64,000 nt of DNA from positions 868,001 to 932,000 of the forward strand of contig NZ_CP019312.1 in the NCBI RefSeq assembly GCF_001969365.1, in the 5' to 3' direction. The stretch is from Tateyamaria omphalii (GTDB lineage Bacteria; Pseudomonadota; Alphaproteobacteria; Rhodobacterales; Rhodobacteraceae). Positions 42,881 to 48,821 of the stretch are shown piece after piece; positions within the stretch are counted from its first letter, which is position 1; every line of letters starts with the position of its first letter. The position numbers and the translations under genes were made by a program. The notes beneath the pieces were generated by a model. It made no database searches, was not told the DNA's origin, and was given only the letters and a program-made list of their open reading frames with translations.

Positions 42881-43031
42881 AATTCCCCAAAATTTGAGTA
42901 AATCATGCGTGCGGTGGCCCGGTTATGCAAAAATTCTGGACTTGCGCCCCAACCGCGGGCATCGTGCAAAAACGACATTATGGGCATTTTCCCCATAGAT
43001 GTCGTGGTGTGTTGAGAGAACGAGGGAAGAT

Positions 43032-43319
43032 ATGCCATTCACAAAAGTGATTACAGCAGCAGCGGTCTTTGCGCTTCTTGGCAGCGGCGCCGTGCTCGCA
43101 CAAAGCCATAACGGTCCGAAAATCTACGCCTACCACAGCCAGCACAACTACTGTCCCGCCGGGCTGCAGCCTGTGACGATGGACGGCGTGATCTGCTGCG
43201 GGGTTCCCAACCAGCACATCACTTACCAACGGGCACTGGCGCATCCAGTCAAGAAACGTGTCAGACACGTGCGTCAAACCAGCTGTCCCGTCGGGACAAA
43301 GGGCTGCACGTTCGATTGA
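43032..43319 (+). CDS. Small Cys-rich exported hypothetical protein
   Basis: 95 residues: signal peptide (MPFTKVITAAAVFALLGSGAVLAQ), then a mature part with five Cys (NYCPAG, VICCG, TSCPVG, GCTFD) and aromatic residues near the first Cys (KIYAYHSQHNYC). Disulfide-stabilised periplasmic protein is likely. GAGGGAAG lies just before ATG 43032. A terminator hairpin follows at 43340. Family not recognised. Confidence 0.72.
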   Translation: MPFTKVITAAAVFALLGSGAVLAQSHNGPKIYAYHSQHNYCPAGLQPVTMDGVICCGVPNQHITYQRALAHPVKKRVRHVRQTSCPVGTKGCTFD

Positions 43320-43386: not shown

Positions 43387-43593
43387 CTAAAGCAGTTTCA
43401 GATCGCCTGCCATCTGGCGCCCATCGCGCCCTTCAAGCAGTTCGAAACTCACTTTCTGATTGTCGGCCAAGCCGGTCAATCCTGACCGCTCCACCGCTGA
43501 AATATGAACAAAAACGTCCTTGCCGCCCTCATCCGGGGCGATAAACCCGTAGCCTTTCGTGGTGTTGAACCACTTCACGGTGCCAGTTGGCAT
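43387..43593 (-). CDS. cspA: Cold-shock domain protein
   Basis: 68 residues, entirely a cold-shock fold: GTVKWFNTTKGYGFIAPDEGGKDVFVHISAVE contains RNP1-like KGYGFI and RNP2-like DVFVHI, the single-strand RNA-binding motifs. It acts as an RNA chaperone. AAAGGAGG precedes ATG 43593 by about nine bases. The 185-base gap to the ArsC-like gene leaves room for a long leader of the kind cold-shock mRNAs have, but I see no proven structure. Confidence 0.95.
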   Translation of the reverse strand: MPTGTVKWFNTTKGYGFIAPDEGGKDVFVHISAVERSGLTGLADNQKVSFELLEGRDGRQMAGDLKLL

Positions 43594-43778
43594 GATCCCG
43601 TGCCTCCTTTACCTTGCAGTCTCCCCCGCGTCGGACCGTCGGGCAGGGGCCTTGGACGACCCAGTCAAAACGACTGCGCCGCTCCCTCAGAGATTGCCCT
43701 CAGGGCGGGAAAATCAAGGTTGGGCCTCGCATTCCGCGCGAGATGCCGCTTAATTCTACGCAAATGTGAGGGATGGAT

Positions 43779-44096
43779 ATGGAAATATACGGATTGAAAA
43801 CCTGCGACACCTGCCGCAAGGCCATCAAGGCGTTGCCGCGGGCGAAATTTGTCGATGTCCGGGCAGAAGGCGTGCCTGATGACGTGATGGATCAGGCACT
43901 TGCCGCATTCGGTGACACGCTGGTCAACACGCGCTCGACCACGTGGCGCGGCTTGTCAGAAGAGGAGCGGAAGATCGCGCCTAAATCGCTGCTGGCCGCG
44001 CATCCGACACTCATGAAACGCCCGCTGATCGTGGACAGTTGCGCCATGCACCTGGGCTGGACCAAAGATGTACAAGCGGCCCTTGGAGTGGCCTAA
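43779..44096 (+). CDS. ArsC/Spx family reductase-like protein (YffB type)
   Basis: 105 residues. MEIYGLKTCDTCRKAIKAL carries the CxxC-like redox motif of the ArsC/Spx fold; RSTTWRGLSEEERKIAP and LIKRP-like MKRPLIVD are the family's later blocks. It is the YffB type, which binds glutathione and is not a proven arsenate reductase. ATG 43779 is better spaced from GAGGG than ATG 43773. Its stop overlaps the convergent DoxX stop. Confidence 0.88.
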   Translation: MEIYGLKTCDTCRKAIKALPRAKFVDVRAEGVPDDVMDQALAAFGDTLVNTRSTTWRGLSEEERKIAPKSLLAAHPTLMKRPLIVDSCAMHLGWTKDVQAALGVA

Positions 44097-44656
44097 GCGG
44101 CGGCCGGGGCAGGTTTTGGGGCAAGGGCCCGATCAAACGAAATCGGCCCGGCCCCTTTGATCACCAAAAGCAGCAGCAGAAACACCCAAAGCGCACGCTG
44201 GTCCATGATCAGGCTGTTGGATGGCGCATCGAACCACGCCCCCAGCACCAGCCCGTCGCCCCATTTGTCGTGGCCGTTCAGGTCAGTCAGCGATTGCACC
44301 ACGATAAACCCGATCATACCCAGTGACGCAAGCCGGGTGAGGAGGCCGATGATGATGAGCAGCGGCAGCACGAATTCAGCCACAGTACCGGCGGTCACGA
44401 CAGCCCAATGAAAGAGACTTAGCTGTGTGACGTCATACCCCACATTCTCCATTACCTTGGGAAAAATCTGCGCATAAGCACCCAGTGACGGTTGGAAAAT
44501 GCCAAAGACCCCATCACCCAGCTTGGTCATCCCTGATACCCAAAAGTACACGGCCAGCACTGCGGCGAACAGGAAACGGGCCAGGGTGGGCAACAGCCAC
44601 TCCACATGCTCGAGCGGGCCAAAGATCGCGGCATGGAGACGGGAAAGGGCAGTCAT
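44093..44656 (-). CDS. DoxX family membrane protein of the bufferin operon
   Basis: 187 residues with four membrane segments (ARFLFAAVLAVYFWVSGMTKL, AVVTAGTVAEFVLPLLIIIGLLTRLAS, LGMIGFIVVQSLTDL, LWVFLLLLLVIKGAGPISF). The GTVAEFVLPLLIIIGLLTR segment is the DoxX hallmark. It lies 4 bases after bufC and is the last gene of the operon. DoxX proteins often accompany bufferin clusters; a redox or quinone-linked role is inferred. Confidence 0.85.
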   Translation of the reverse strand: MTALSRLHAAIFGPLEHVEWLLPTLARFLFAAVLAVYFWVSGMTKLGDGVFGIFQPSLGAYAQIFPKVMENVGYDVTQLSLFHWAVVTAGTVAEFVLPLLIIIGLLTRLASLGMIGFIVVQSLTDLNGHDKWGDGLVLGAWFDAPSNSLIMDQRALWVFLLLLLVIKGAGPISFDRALAPKPAPAAA

Positions 44657-44660
44657 GGGG

Positions 44661-45419
44661 TCATTCCTCTGGAGTGGTGATGTCGGTTAGGGCGCCCTGC
44701 TGGATAAGCAGGCTCAGCAATGGCCCAAGGTCGAATTCGGGGTCGATCGTAGTGGCGGCGTCCACTGCCGCTTCGAGCGTTTGGTCATCTGAAATGGCCT
44801 GTAGCCACGCCGCTTGCGCCGATGTCAGGGGATGCGGCGCGGGATCGAATTGGGCGCGCGTGACAAGGACAGGCTGCGCTATCCCGTGCGGCTTTGGCGC
44901 GTCCGGCTCAGTGTTGTAGCGCCAGATGTCGAAAATCGGCCATCGGGACGGGACAAACTGCGCGGCAGGGGCGAGGCGCAGCCGGGTCTGCATCAGCACA
45001 TCCGCTGGCACCGCGCCCAAGCGGCTCGCATCAAACGGTGCGCTATCCGCGGCGTGGTACGACCTGCGCAGTGCCAGTTCCAGGCGCGCCACGTCAGGCA
45101 GATACCCGATATGCGCCAGCGGTTTGAACCCGTCCAGAAACGCGGGCAGCGCTTCACCATAGTGCATCATCATGGGCGAGTTGGGCGGATGCGCACGGGC
45201 AAAAAGCCGGGCAAGTTGATCGAAATTTTGGTCTCCCAACAGCTTGCACAATACCGGAAAGCCGGTGCGCAGCGCGTTGATCAAGGCGACAGTGACGTTG
45301 TTGCGATAGACGGCAAAGCGTCGGGTCGTCTGCTGGCCCGCGGGGTCCGTCAGCCCCTCGGGCACCGCACGCTCCGGATCAAGGAGCGCGGCGCGAAATG
45401 CGGCTTGTGTCGTGGTCAT
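44661..45419 (-). CDS. bufC: DUF2063 bufferin biosynthesis partner BufC
   Basis: 252 residues. TQAAFRAALLDPERAVPEGL, RRFAVYRNNVTVALINALRTGFPVLCKLLGDQNFDQLARLFARAHPPNSPMMMHYGEALPAFL is the classic DUF2063 N-terminal domain, which acts as the peptide-recognition partner for the MNIO enzyme. It begins 4 bases after bufB. ATG 45419 is chosen over the upstream start of the frame. Confidence 0.9.
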   Translation of the reverse strand: MTTTQAAFRAALLDPERAVPEGLTDPAGQQTTRRFAVYRNNVTVALINALRTGFPVLCKLLGDQNFDQLARLFARAHPPNSPMMMHYGEALPAFLDGFKPLAHIGYLPDVARLELALRRSYHAADSAPFDASRLGAVPADVLMQTRLRLAPAAQFVPSRWPIFDIWRYNTEPDAPKPHGIAQPVLVTRAQFDPAPHPLTSAQAAWLQAISDDQTLEAAVDAATTIDPEFDLGPLLSLLIQQGALTDITTPEE

Positions 45420-45423
45420 CACA

Positions 45424-46284
45424 TCACCCGGCAGGGGCTGTGGCCAAGGCGCGGGCCGCGCGGTCAGCTTCGGCACGCAGTGTCGGCCAATCGGGCACGT
45501 CATTGTCCCATTCGACCAGCACGGGCTCAGGTCCCGTGCCGCTCAGAGCATGATCCAACAGGGCCCAAACGGGTTCTGCCGCTTCGCGTCCATGGCTGTC
45601 GATCAGCAGCGGCGCGCCGCTGTCGTCTTCATCCTCGTCATGGCCGCCGACATGGATTTCTCCAACGGCAGCAAGAGGATAGGCATCTAGATACGATTGC
45701 GGTGTATAGCCCAGGTTGGTCGCCGAAATGAACACGTTGTTCACGTCCAAAAGCAGGCCGCAGCCGGTGCGTTGCACCAACTCGGCCAGAAAGTCCGTTT
45801 CTGACCACGTGCTTTCGGCAAAGGCCAGATAGCTTGACGGGTTCTCAAGCAGCATCCGGCGGCCCAAGGTTTCCTGCACTTCGTCGATGTGGTCGGCGAC
45901 GCAAGATAGCGTCGCGTCGGTGTAGGGCAGGGGCAGCAGGTCATCGAGGAACTCGGCCCCGTGGGTGGACCAAGCGAGGTGTTCGGAGAAGCTGGCGGGC
46001 TCAAGCCAGCCCACAAGGTGCTTCAGGCGTGCAAGATGATCGGGATCAAGGCGGCCCTCGCCACCGATCGACAGTCCGACACCGTGCACGGATATGGCAA
46101 AATCCTCGCGCAGGGCGCGCAGTTGCGCATGCGGTCGCCCGCCGTCGCCCATGTAGTTTTCCGCGTGGACTTCCAGCCACTTGACAGGGCCAGGGCCCGC
46201 ACGCAGATCGGTGAAATGCTGGGCCTTGTATCCCACGCCGGGGGCTGCGGGCAGGCGGGGCGGTGTCAATGTCGCATCCAGCAT
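45424..46284 (-). CDS. bufB: DUF692 multinuclear iron enzyme BufB
   Basis: 286 residues, TIM-barrel family of multinuclear non-heme iron oxidases (MNIO). Metal-ligand regions are readable: [67 protein letters not shown] and LIDSHGREA, then [10 protein letters not shown]. Family enzymes modify Cys residues in RiPP precursors. It is preceded by the precursor gene bufA with an intervening hairpin. Confidence 0.93.
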
Positions 46285-46320
46285 GTCGAAACCTTCGGGC
46301 GGCGGGGGATCAGGCGAAAA

Positions 46321-46344
46321 CGTCGGACCCGGACAGGTCCGACG
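46321..46344 (-). terminator. Weak terminator / attenuator between bufA and bufB
   Basis: CGTCGGACC and GGTCCGACG form a perfect 9-bp stem with a six-base loop; on the minus strand it is followed by TTTTCG. It sits in the 77-base gap between the precursor and enzyme genes and probably lets only part of transcription through, giving more precursor than enzyme. Confidence 0.65.
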
Positions 46345-46361
46345 CAGGCGTGTGGCGTGCC

Positions 46362-46670
46362 TCAGGCAGAGGGCAGGTCGCGGTTCAGCTCTTCGAGCGA
46401 GCCTTGCCGTGCGGTGCCGTCTGCCATCGCGGGCAGGTCGATCTTGGCGCAGGTGCCGGCGTCAACCAGCGTCCAGGCGTTGCCTTGGTAGTCCACGGTC
46501 GATGTGCCCGCGCATGTGGTGCCCGGGCCGGCGGCGCAGTCATTTTCACCGGCGAGCGAGATGCCATAGCATTTCTCTTTGCCAGCGGCCTCGGCTGTCG
46601 TCGCGGACTGTGCAGTCATTGCGGCCGCAACGGCGCCGACAATTGCAACGGTTTTCATGGTCTTCGACAT
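46362..46670 (-). CDS. bufA: Bufferin precursor (DUF2282), BufA
   Basis: 102 residues. Signal peptide about 1-29 ([20 protein letters not shown], ending TTAEAAG), then the bufferin core with four Cys: C34 ([11 protein letters not shown]), C45 (ENDCAAG), C53 (TTCAGTS) and C74 (DAGTCAK). This matches the DUF2282 pattern of precursors whose central Cys become thiooxazoles and bind copper. GGGAAG precedes ATG 46670. It is the first gene of the bufABC-DoxX operon, downstream of the thrS terminator. Confidence 0.93.
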
Positions 46671-46794
46671 CTTCAACTTCCCTTTCGGATATCGGTTTCT
46701 GTGCGTTCGTGAGCCATACATAAGACGGCTTCGCGACAACTTACCACTCACGAGGCGGTGTGTCACAGACCCGTTATCAGATGTCAGAAGAAGG

Positions 46795-46818
46795 GCCGGA
46801 ATCCGCGGGGATTCCGGC
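46795..46818 (-). terminator. Intrinsic terminator after thrS
   Basis: GCCGGAATCC and GGATTCCGGC pair over 10 bp with a four-base loop, followed on the minus strand by the pyrimidine run CCTTCTTCT. It separates thrS from the bufferin operon. Confidence 0.7.
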
Positions 46819-46862
46819 ACATTGTTGCAGGTCGTATCGCCTTATGTTGCAAAAACCGGCGC

Positions 46863-48821
46863 TTAGCGGCGGTCCGGCGGTGTCGCTTCGACCCCAAGTT
46901 GCGCCGCGACATCGGCCAACGCTTGCACGCTGGTCTGCTTCTCGCCAAGGCGCCGGACGGACACGGTTTTTTCCTCAACCTCGCGCGCACCGACGGCCAG
47001 GATGACAGGGACCTTGCCGACCGAATGCTCGCGGACCTTGTAGTTGATCTTTTCATTCCGCATGTCGGCCTCGACCCGGACACCAGCGGCGCGCAGGGTC
47101 TCGACGACCTCGCCGACATACGCATCCGCTTCCGAGGTGATGGAGGCCACAACAACTTGGCGCGGCGCCAGCCAGAACGGCAGCTTGCCCGCGTGTTCCT
47201 CGATCAGAATGCCGATGAAGCGCTCGAACGACCCAAGGCAAGCGCGGTGCAGCATGACGGGCCGGTGCTTGGCCCCGTCCGCGCCGATGTAAGTCGCATC
47301 CAGCCGTTCGGGCAGCACGAAATCCACCTGGAACGTGCCGCACTGCCAGTCACGCCCAATGGCATCGGTCAGCACAAATTCCAGCTTCGGGCCATAGAAG
47401 GCCCCCTCACCGGGGTTCAGCTCCGGTTCGACCCCAGCGGCACGCGTGGCGGTCAGCAGCGCCTCTTCGGCCTTGTCCCAAACCTCATCCGATCCGGCGC
47501 GCGTCTCTGGCCGGTCCGAGAACTTGACCGAGAAGCTGGCAAACCCCAGGTCCTCGTAAATCTCGGTCAGGAAGGCGATAAAGCGCGCGCATTCGCTGCC
47601 GATCTGATCCTCTTCGGCAAAGATGTGACCGTCGTCCTGCGCAAAGCCGCGCACGCGCATGATCCCGTGCAAGGCGCCCGACGGCTCGTACCGCGCGCAA
47701 GACCCGAACTCGGCCATGCGCAGGGGCAGGTCACGGTAGGATTTCAGCCCGTGCTTGAAGATTTCCACGTGGCAGGGGCAGTTCATCGGCTTGAGCGCAT
47801 TGACCGCCTTTTCCTTGGCGTGCTCCTCCTCGACCTCGACGATGAACATGTTTTCCTGGTACTTTTCCCAGTGCCCGGACTTTTCCCACAAGTTGCGGTT
47901 CACGACCTGCGGCGTGTTCACCTCAACGTAGCCGCCTGCATGTTGCTTGCGGCGCATGTAGTCCTGCAACTCGGTGTAGATGGTCCAGCCATTGGGGTGC
48001 CAGAACACCTGGCCCGGCGCCTCTTCCTGCATGTGGAACAGGTTCATCTCGCGGCCCAGCTTCCGGTGGTCGCGTTTTGCAGCCTCTTCCAGCATGTTCA
48101 GATGCGCGCGCAGCTTTTCCTTGCCGGTAAAGGCCACGCCGTAGATGCGTTGCAGCATGGCGCGGTTGGAATCGCCGCGCCAATAGGCGCCCGCGATGGA
48201 CATCAGCTTGAACGCGTCACCCGGCACCTGTCCGGTGTGCTGCAAATGCGGTCCACGGCACAGGTCCTGCCAGTCGCCATGCCAATACATCCGCAGCGGC
48301 TCGTCGCCCGGAATGCTCTCGATCAGTTCGACCTTGTAGGGTTCGCCCCGGTCCTCGTAATACTTGATCGCCACATCGCGGTCCCACACCTCGGTCCGGA
48401 CGGGATCGCGCTTGTTGATGATTTCCTTCATCTTCTTTTCGATCAGGCCGAGGTCTTCGGGGGTGAATGGCTCAGCCCGGTCAAAGTCGTAATACCAGCC
48501 GTTGTCGATCACCGGGCCGATGGTGACCTTGGTGTCGGGCCAGATCTCCTGCACGGCGCGGGCCATGATGTGAGCGAGGTCATGGCGCACCAGCTCGTTG
48601 GCCTGCGCCTCGTCCTGCATGGTGTGGATCGCAATCTGCGCATCGCCATCGATGGGCCATTGCAGGTCCCAGTGCTGGCCGTCCACGGTGGCGCTGATCG
48701 CCTTCTTGGACAGGCTCTTGGAAATGCTCTCTGCCACGGCAGCAGGGGTCACGCCAGCGTTGTAATCGCGTGCATTGCCGTCGGGAAAAGTAAGGGAAAT
48801 CTGGTGCTGATCTTTGGCCAT
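46863..48821 (-). CDS. thrS: Threonyl-tRNA synthetase
   Basis: 652 residues with TGS domain at the N-terminus ([14 protein letters not shown]), the editing domain with [34 protein letters not shown], class II motif 2 ([30 protein letters not shown]), motif 3 ([22 protein letters not shown]) and the anticodon-binding domain. Charges tRNA-Thr and edits mis-charged Ser. ATG 48821; ends with VEATPPDRR. Ordinary housekeeping gene. Confidence 0.97.

Follow-up and report, generated by a model that had tools for sequence, protein, structure and literature searches.

The closest described counterparts of the locus examined here are the Buf1 bufferin operons of Caulobacter, Cupriavidus, and Legionella (the "gig" operon), in which, according to the available parts of the sources, a DUF2282 precursor gene stands together with DUF692 (MNIO), DUF2063, and DoxX genes (PMC12452194, PMC3511200, PMC5413113). 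We found the same four kinds of gene in Tateyamaria omphalii, within a 64,000-nucleotide stretch of contig NZ_CP019312.1 (positions 868,001 to 932,000), referred to as the window herein, and between the precursor gene bufA and the first enzyme gene bufB we found a stem-loop that is kept across related loci. Our analysis suggests that, in this complete Buf1 operon, the hairpin probably marks where a bufA-only mRNA ends, such that the precursor would outnumber its enzymes.

Buf1 and Buf2 precursors number in the thousands, bufABC is a strict gene order, and DoxX belongs to the core genes, as stated in the parts of PMC12452194 at hand; this last point runs counter to the initial annotation of this DNA, which had counted DoxX among the less studied parts. 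According to the same source, only the two central Cys residues of Buf1 are modified, with the outer two forming a disulfide, and on a related precursor thiooxazole formation costs four hydrogens per modified Cys (PMC13097082, likewise in part). The four-gene cluster of Caulobacter is described as responding to chromium, cadmium, and copper and as being under SigF (PMC3511200, PMC8224329). Bufferins have also been placed, with oxazolin, fontiphorin, and others, in the proposed class of captophorins, which like this locus combine an MNIO and DUF2063 (PME1) pair with a Cys-rich precursor (PMC13097082); the predicted precursor here is of the DUF2282 type as opposed to the captophorin EGKCG repeats. 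A hairpin between the precursor gene and the first enzyme gene of a ribosomally synthesized and post-translationally modified peptide (RiPP) is also known from microcin C, where the mccA-mccB terminator lifts the mccA transcript above the enzyme transcripts (PMC6495379). Microcin C is an unrelated RiPP, however, and in the roseobacter relatives studied here the T-run is often missing.

The genes of the operon, with coordinates in the window, are as follows.

46362..46670, minus strand: bufA, Buf1 (DUF2282) bufferin precursor, 102 aa; PF10048, 86.1 bits (cut-off 22.4)
45424..46284, minus strand: bufB, MNIO (DUF692) bufferin maturase, 286 aa; PF05114, 335.1 bits; NF050167 (NCBIfam, "MNIO family bufferin maturase"), 359.8 bits (cut-off 310)
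44661..45419, minus strand: bufC, DUF2063 partner protein, 252 aa; PF09836, 94.8 bits (cut-off 27.2)
44093..44656, minus strand: doxX, the fourth gene, DoxX-family membrane protein, 187 aa; PF07681, 35.0 bits (cut-off 23.6)

All four passed their Pfam cut-offs and lie in one direction within 44093-46670, where the initial annotation had placed them. The 4-base gaps that it gave were found between bufB and bufC and between bufC and doxX; the bufA-bufB gap is 77 bases. The four Cys residues of BufA are at the annotated positions 34, 45, 53, and 74, and their pattern (x10, x5-9, x18-24) was present in 98/98 BufA sequences of the loci described below (own sequence and duplicates counted; locus L026 dropped as cut). 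Judged by eye, the BufA N-terminus is of the Sec type, with a charged n-region, a hydrophobic core, an A-x-A-like site, and no lipobox, which is consistent with the exported Cys peptide that had been proposed. BufB aligned to the DUF692 structures 3BWW (E 9.7e-39) and, less strongly, 8HCI and MbnB (7DZ9). BufC scored 52 bits against the HvfC model NF050145, under its cut-off of 142, and the fourth-gene DoxX protein scored 25.7 bits against the HvfX model, under its cut-off of 80; for a C-terminal RiPP recognition element in BufC, neither a single sequence nor a 14-sequence profile gave a PDB match. The genome contains one DUF2282 match only, bufA. On these matches, the locus is a complete, single-copy, and ordinary Buf1 bufferin operon in a roseobacter.

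For comparison, we used 19 loci of the genus (own locus, L001, included) and the best 80 of 573 named loci by BufB match, which represent the near end of the family. The gene bufA precedes bufB in 99/99 loci, and bufABC-doxX follow in order on one strand in 78 of the best 80 of 573 named loci, the other two being short contigs without doxX. DUF2282 was present in 19/20 genomes of the genus, own included; the smallest listed (G005, 3.1 Mb) gave no DUF2282 match, and loss with genome reduction is possible.

The bufA-bufB hairpin and its conservation

Two features lie in the bufA-bufB gap.

46320..46345, minus strand: intercistronic stem-loop; 9-bp perfect core at 46321-46344, 11 bp when a basal and an apical G-U are counted
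46317..46320, minus strand: TTTT immediately 3′ of the hairpin core, a putative weak intrinsic-terminator tail

This is the 9-bp hairpin with TTTT that the initial annotation had seen between precursor and enzymes. As an uninterrupted stem it has -19.4 kcal/mol, which was reached by 1/200 shuffles of the spacer. It is absent from the output of a coarse terminator scan, as that scan requires five T in eight. By itself, the hairpin of the window is only moderately surprising, and the comparison with relatives is what convinces.

Without one N-containing spacer (L077) and four exact duplicates, the 99 loci yielded 94 distinct bufA-bufB spacers. The best uninterrupted stem-loop in these had a median of -20.7 kcal/mol, versus -6.0 in 846 bufA and bufB coding windows of the same length, and stems of -18 kcal/mol or better were found in 73/94 spacers versus 0/846 coding windows. 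When each spacer was compared with 200 of its own dinucleotide shuffles, the uninterrupted stem was never reached in 65 spacers, at most once in 73 (referred to as the strict test), and at most 10 times in 82; within the genus, 14/19 passed the strict test. We also took control gaps from the window and twelve 20-kb stretches, using a coarse gene caller that missed bufC in the window. Here, -18 was reached in 7/51 co-directional gaps of 40-130 bases, one being bufA-bufB itself (6/50 others), in 5/9 convergent gaps, and in 0/8 divergent gaps. Set against the coding windows and these gaps, the 73/94 spacers imply that the bufA-bufB spacer resembles the 3′ end of a gene and not an ordinary operon joint.

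The letters of the stem change almost completely between genera. Ten of the 19 genus loci were chosen for alignable stems, and kept pairing therefore holds within that subset. Across 10 pairs in these ten close relatives, 97% of pair cells were paired, and 3/10 pairs carried two-sided (compensatory) changes; each of these two values was matched by 1/500 shuffles. In slid-arm controls, pairing fell to 25-50%. The stem thus covaries among close relatives. The conserved element is a predicted 3′-end hairpin and not strictly an intrinsic attenuator.

We found no description of a hairpin in bufferin operons in the literature, in searches that were narrow and are not proof of absence. The main text of PMC12452194 has zero occurrences of hairpin, stem-loop, attenuat-, or terminator, and the parts of the bufferin literature examined make no mention of a hairpin spacer such as the one here. 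The hairpin is real, clade-wide, and undescribed as far as the literature was searched.

Several observations weigh against reading the hairpin as a conserved 3′ end. In the window, the total folding energy of the hairpin region is unremarkable (z -0.72, with 40/200 shuffles folding as well), and folding energy was dropped as a discriminator, the region folding no better than its shuffles. With a flexible single-hairpin fold, 54/94 spacers beat all 20 shuffles, own not among them, and class-wide 15/42 spacers of 40 nt or more did so; the hairpin signal depends on the uninterrupted-stem measure. On that measure, the strict test is not passed by 21/94 spacers. An 87-nt bufA-bufB spacer with no good stem by eye is found in L038, a Roseobacter locus whose operon is complete; this locus is a natural contrast for the role of the hairpin. 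Among the ten close relatives, the count of further pair types was not above shuffles (207/500). The relatives are non-independent samples, and their bufB starts were extrapolated from alignments, with 21/99 loci lacking a start codon there, so that spacer ends are approximate; the strict-test pass rate was alike with a start codon (57/73) and without (16/21).

The same caution comes from the class, which we take to be Alphaproteobacteria, surveyed in 241 evenly drawn genomes (own included). DUF2282 was found in 93/241, and we read 107 of the 108 listed DUF2282 places outside the own genome, leaving out one in G056. At 88 of these places, bufB comes after bufA with both on one strand; 15 have bufA only, and 4 are of other kinds. 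The 15 places without bufB in the stretch read (L104, L107, L114, L126, and others) are orphan precursors or short contigs. The bufA-bufB gap of the 88 operons is under 16 nt in 24, 16-39 nt in 21, and 40 nt or more in 43, with 45/88 under 40 nt, classes that depend somewhat on the choice of bufB start (-4 versus 62 in L109, 32 versus 404 in L129). The strict test was passed by 17/88, the 24 shortest gaps being too short to test: 0/21 at 16-39 nt, 14/37 at 40-139 nt (one with N left out), and 3/5 above. Two of the 17 are in the own family, and several rows are near-copies. Since 24 gaps are too short and 0/21 of the next class pass, the operon can work without the hairpin. On a BufB tree made by a quick method (105 rows, 77 labelled), it takes 9 changes to account for the hairpin and tight states, and well-supported branches force at least 4 of these. 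The hairpin is thus frequent among roseobacters and found elsewhere too, and the operon occurs without it in many lineages.

Probable role of the hairpin

By analogy with the bufferin of Caulobacter, BufA would be synthesized with a Sec signal peptide, BufB and BufC would convert the central Cys45 and Cys53 to thiooxazoles, the outer Cys34 and Cys74 would pair in a disulfide, and the exported peptide would bind copper in the periplasm. The earlier expectation of a 4 Da loss per modified Cys pair was misstated, as the available text of the sources gives four hydrogens per modified Cys (PMC13097082) and modification of the central two only (PMC12452194). With the outer disulfide, the predicted shift is therefore -8 for Cys45 and Cys53 together and a further -2 for 34-74.

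We propose that an mRNA of bufA only would have its 3′ end at the hairpin, letting the stoichiometric precursor exceed its catalysts, and that the excess of bufA mRNA may come from leaky termination, from protection against decay, or from both. Because the ∼27-35 nt from stem to bufB leave no room for a separate promoter, some transcription must pass the hairpin; a promoter inside bufA may be an alternative to such read-through. The initial annotation had proposed over-production of the precursor by partial termination. Over-production is the most likely role as judged from sequence, and besides partial termination a second route may lead to it, the T-run being present in a minority of loci and the stem being conserved.

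To compare these routes, position and tail statistics were taken on 82 hairpins of -12 or better (own included). The median distance is 16 nt from the bufA stop to the stem and 27 nt from the stem to bufB, a spacing that leaves the bufB ribosome-binding region free. A pure intrinsic attenuator would mostly terminate transcription at the hairpin and T-run, with a minority of read-through and no role in mRNA stability; it is one route within the explanation above, and taken as the whole of it we regard it as possible though on balance doubtful. It accords with the TTTT after the stem in the window, which suggests that weak intrinsic termination contributes there, with the enrichment of T over the 8 nt that follow the stem (0.349 versus 0.143 in the rest of the spacer), and with the microcin C precedent, as far as described in the available part of its source (PMC6495379). 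The tails average 2.79 T of 8, compared to 4.00 for the 3′ hairpins of the neighboring gene thrS (found in 83/92 loci examined), and this weakness is what leaky termination would need. However, TTT within 2 nt of the stem was found in only 27/82 hairpins and TTTT in 13/82, and 37/82 tails have at most two T of 8, same-genus relatives that keep the stem among them.

The other route is a decay barrier with no termination, in which the full-length bufABC-doxX mRNA would be cut downstream and then trimmed from 3′ to 5′ until the stem-loop is reached. What remained would be a stable bufA mRNA, as is the case for puf and malE; ends made by Rho and trimmed back this far would have the same appearance. 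Across the clade the stem is conserved and the T-run less so, and the stem sequence turns over with pairing kept. Given that relatives retain the stem but frequently lack the tail, shielding of bufA mRNA against 3′ decay is no less probable than termination. Rhodobacter belongs to the same order as T. omphalii. In the available parts of the sources, Rhodobacter puf mRNA uses stabilizing structures (PMC6238624), malE-malF and other Escherichia coli operons have protective 3′ hairpins (PMC5927463), and in both puf and malE-malF the hairpin likewise follows a gene for a product required in excess; decay protection is demonstrated for those hairpins, whereas we infer it for that of bufA-bufB. The spacer after the hairpin is also C-rich (864 C, 564 G), as is, less strongly, the stretch preceding it (483 C, 370 G). 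A barrier alone leaves the T enrichment right after the stem unexplained, and as a full account it is likewise possible though on balance doubtful. We do not choose between leaky termination and decay protection; both would give more bufA than bufBC mRNA.

A hairpin that has no function in the operon, being either a dispersed palindromic repeat or a general consequence of GC-rich intergenic sequence, is unlikely. GC-rich DNA folds readily, flexible folding separates real from shuffled spacers poorly, and some genera have repetitive-looking palindromes by eye. However, strong stems of unrelated letters stand at the same place across genera, only 6/50 other co-directional gaps reach -18, and the own genome has the core pattern 3 times, a dispersed repeat being accordingly unsupported there. 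Hiding of the bufB ribosome-binding site, or a metal-sensing riboswitch, is very improbable and was rejected on the spacing and the Rfam search, as nothing specific favors either beyond the position of the stem upstream of bufB, the ribosome-binding region is free, Rfam returned no family match in 44000-47100 at E up to 1, and no loop sequence common across genera was apparent by eye.

Upstream dyad and flanking genes

The following features lie on either side of the operon.

46748..46766, minus strand: upstream dyad GTGACACACCGCCTCGTGA, likely operator or promoter element
46795..46818, minus strand: terminator-like hairpin after thrS with a 10-pair stem, which would part bufA from thrS
46863-48821, minus strand: thrS, precedes bufA
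43773-44096, plus strand: ArsC/Spx-like gene, convergent with doxX, with a 4-base overlap of ends

The dyad GTGACACACCGCCTCGTGA stands ∼80 nt upstream of bufA, and the aligned upstream regions of relatives share a dyad near GTGAnACACgggCtCGTGAnT. The core of the dyad is conserved across roseobacters: we found CACN6GTGA in 79/98 upstream regions (own and duplicates included), versus a mean of 1.7 in shuffles. The fuller dyad pattern had one exact match in the own genome, before bufA, and one match with a single mismatch elsewhere. In 7 relatives it gave 7 matches, 5 upstream of bufA and 2 elsewhere by coordinates, with none in one relative, and no wider dyad regulon was found in the own genome and these 7. 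The dyad is probably an operator.

The locus differs here from the Caulobacter type. NrsF gave 0 matches in the own genome, with a positive Caulobacter control, and the SigF motif GTAACC-N16-CGAA at up to 2 mismatches had 47 matches in the window (37 expected) and none in 46671-46862 upstream of bufA. Because NrsF was not found and the motif is absent upstream of bufA, SigF/NrsF control of the Caulobacter type is not indicated. A bolder proposal is that roseobacters have a SigF-independent, two-part control, in which a dedicated regulator would read the dyad and a translation- or copper-responsive hairpin would switch the precursor-to-enzyme ratio under metal stress; we consider this rather unlikely.

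The surroundings of the operon are shared as well. Among the best 80 of 573 named loci, thrS was found in the upstream flank of 78 and a convergent ArsC-like gene downstream in 71; the pairing of the ArsC-like gene with doxX may be functional or merely old synteny. The terminator scan listed 3 sites like the thrS-bufA hairpin, compared to 3.7 in shuffles, which makes that hairpin weak on its own. Two genes downstream of the operon is a cold-shock domain gene (43387-43593, minus strand), and in L026 a cold-shock-like gene likewise follows the ArsC-like gene, by eye. A small open reading frame at 42999-43319 (plus strand) encodes a signal-peptide-like stretch followed by five Cys and had no Pfam match.

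Meaning for roseobacter bufferins

The operon is of an already known kind, and the new part is the hairpin. That it is kept in place while its letters change across a marine clade suggests that selection acts on the transcript ratio, and the hairpin is a simple element that can be tested. For heterologous expression, it is a warning that the operon is probably not built to give equal amounts of bufA and bufBC. Should the dyad indeed be a dedicated operator, the regulator of roseobacter bufferins would become findable.

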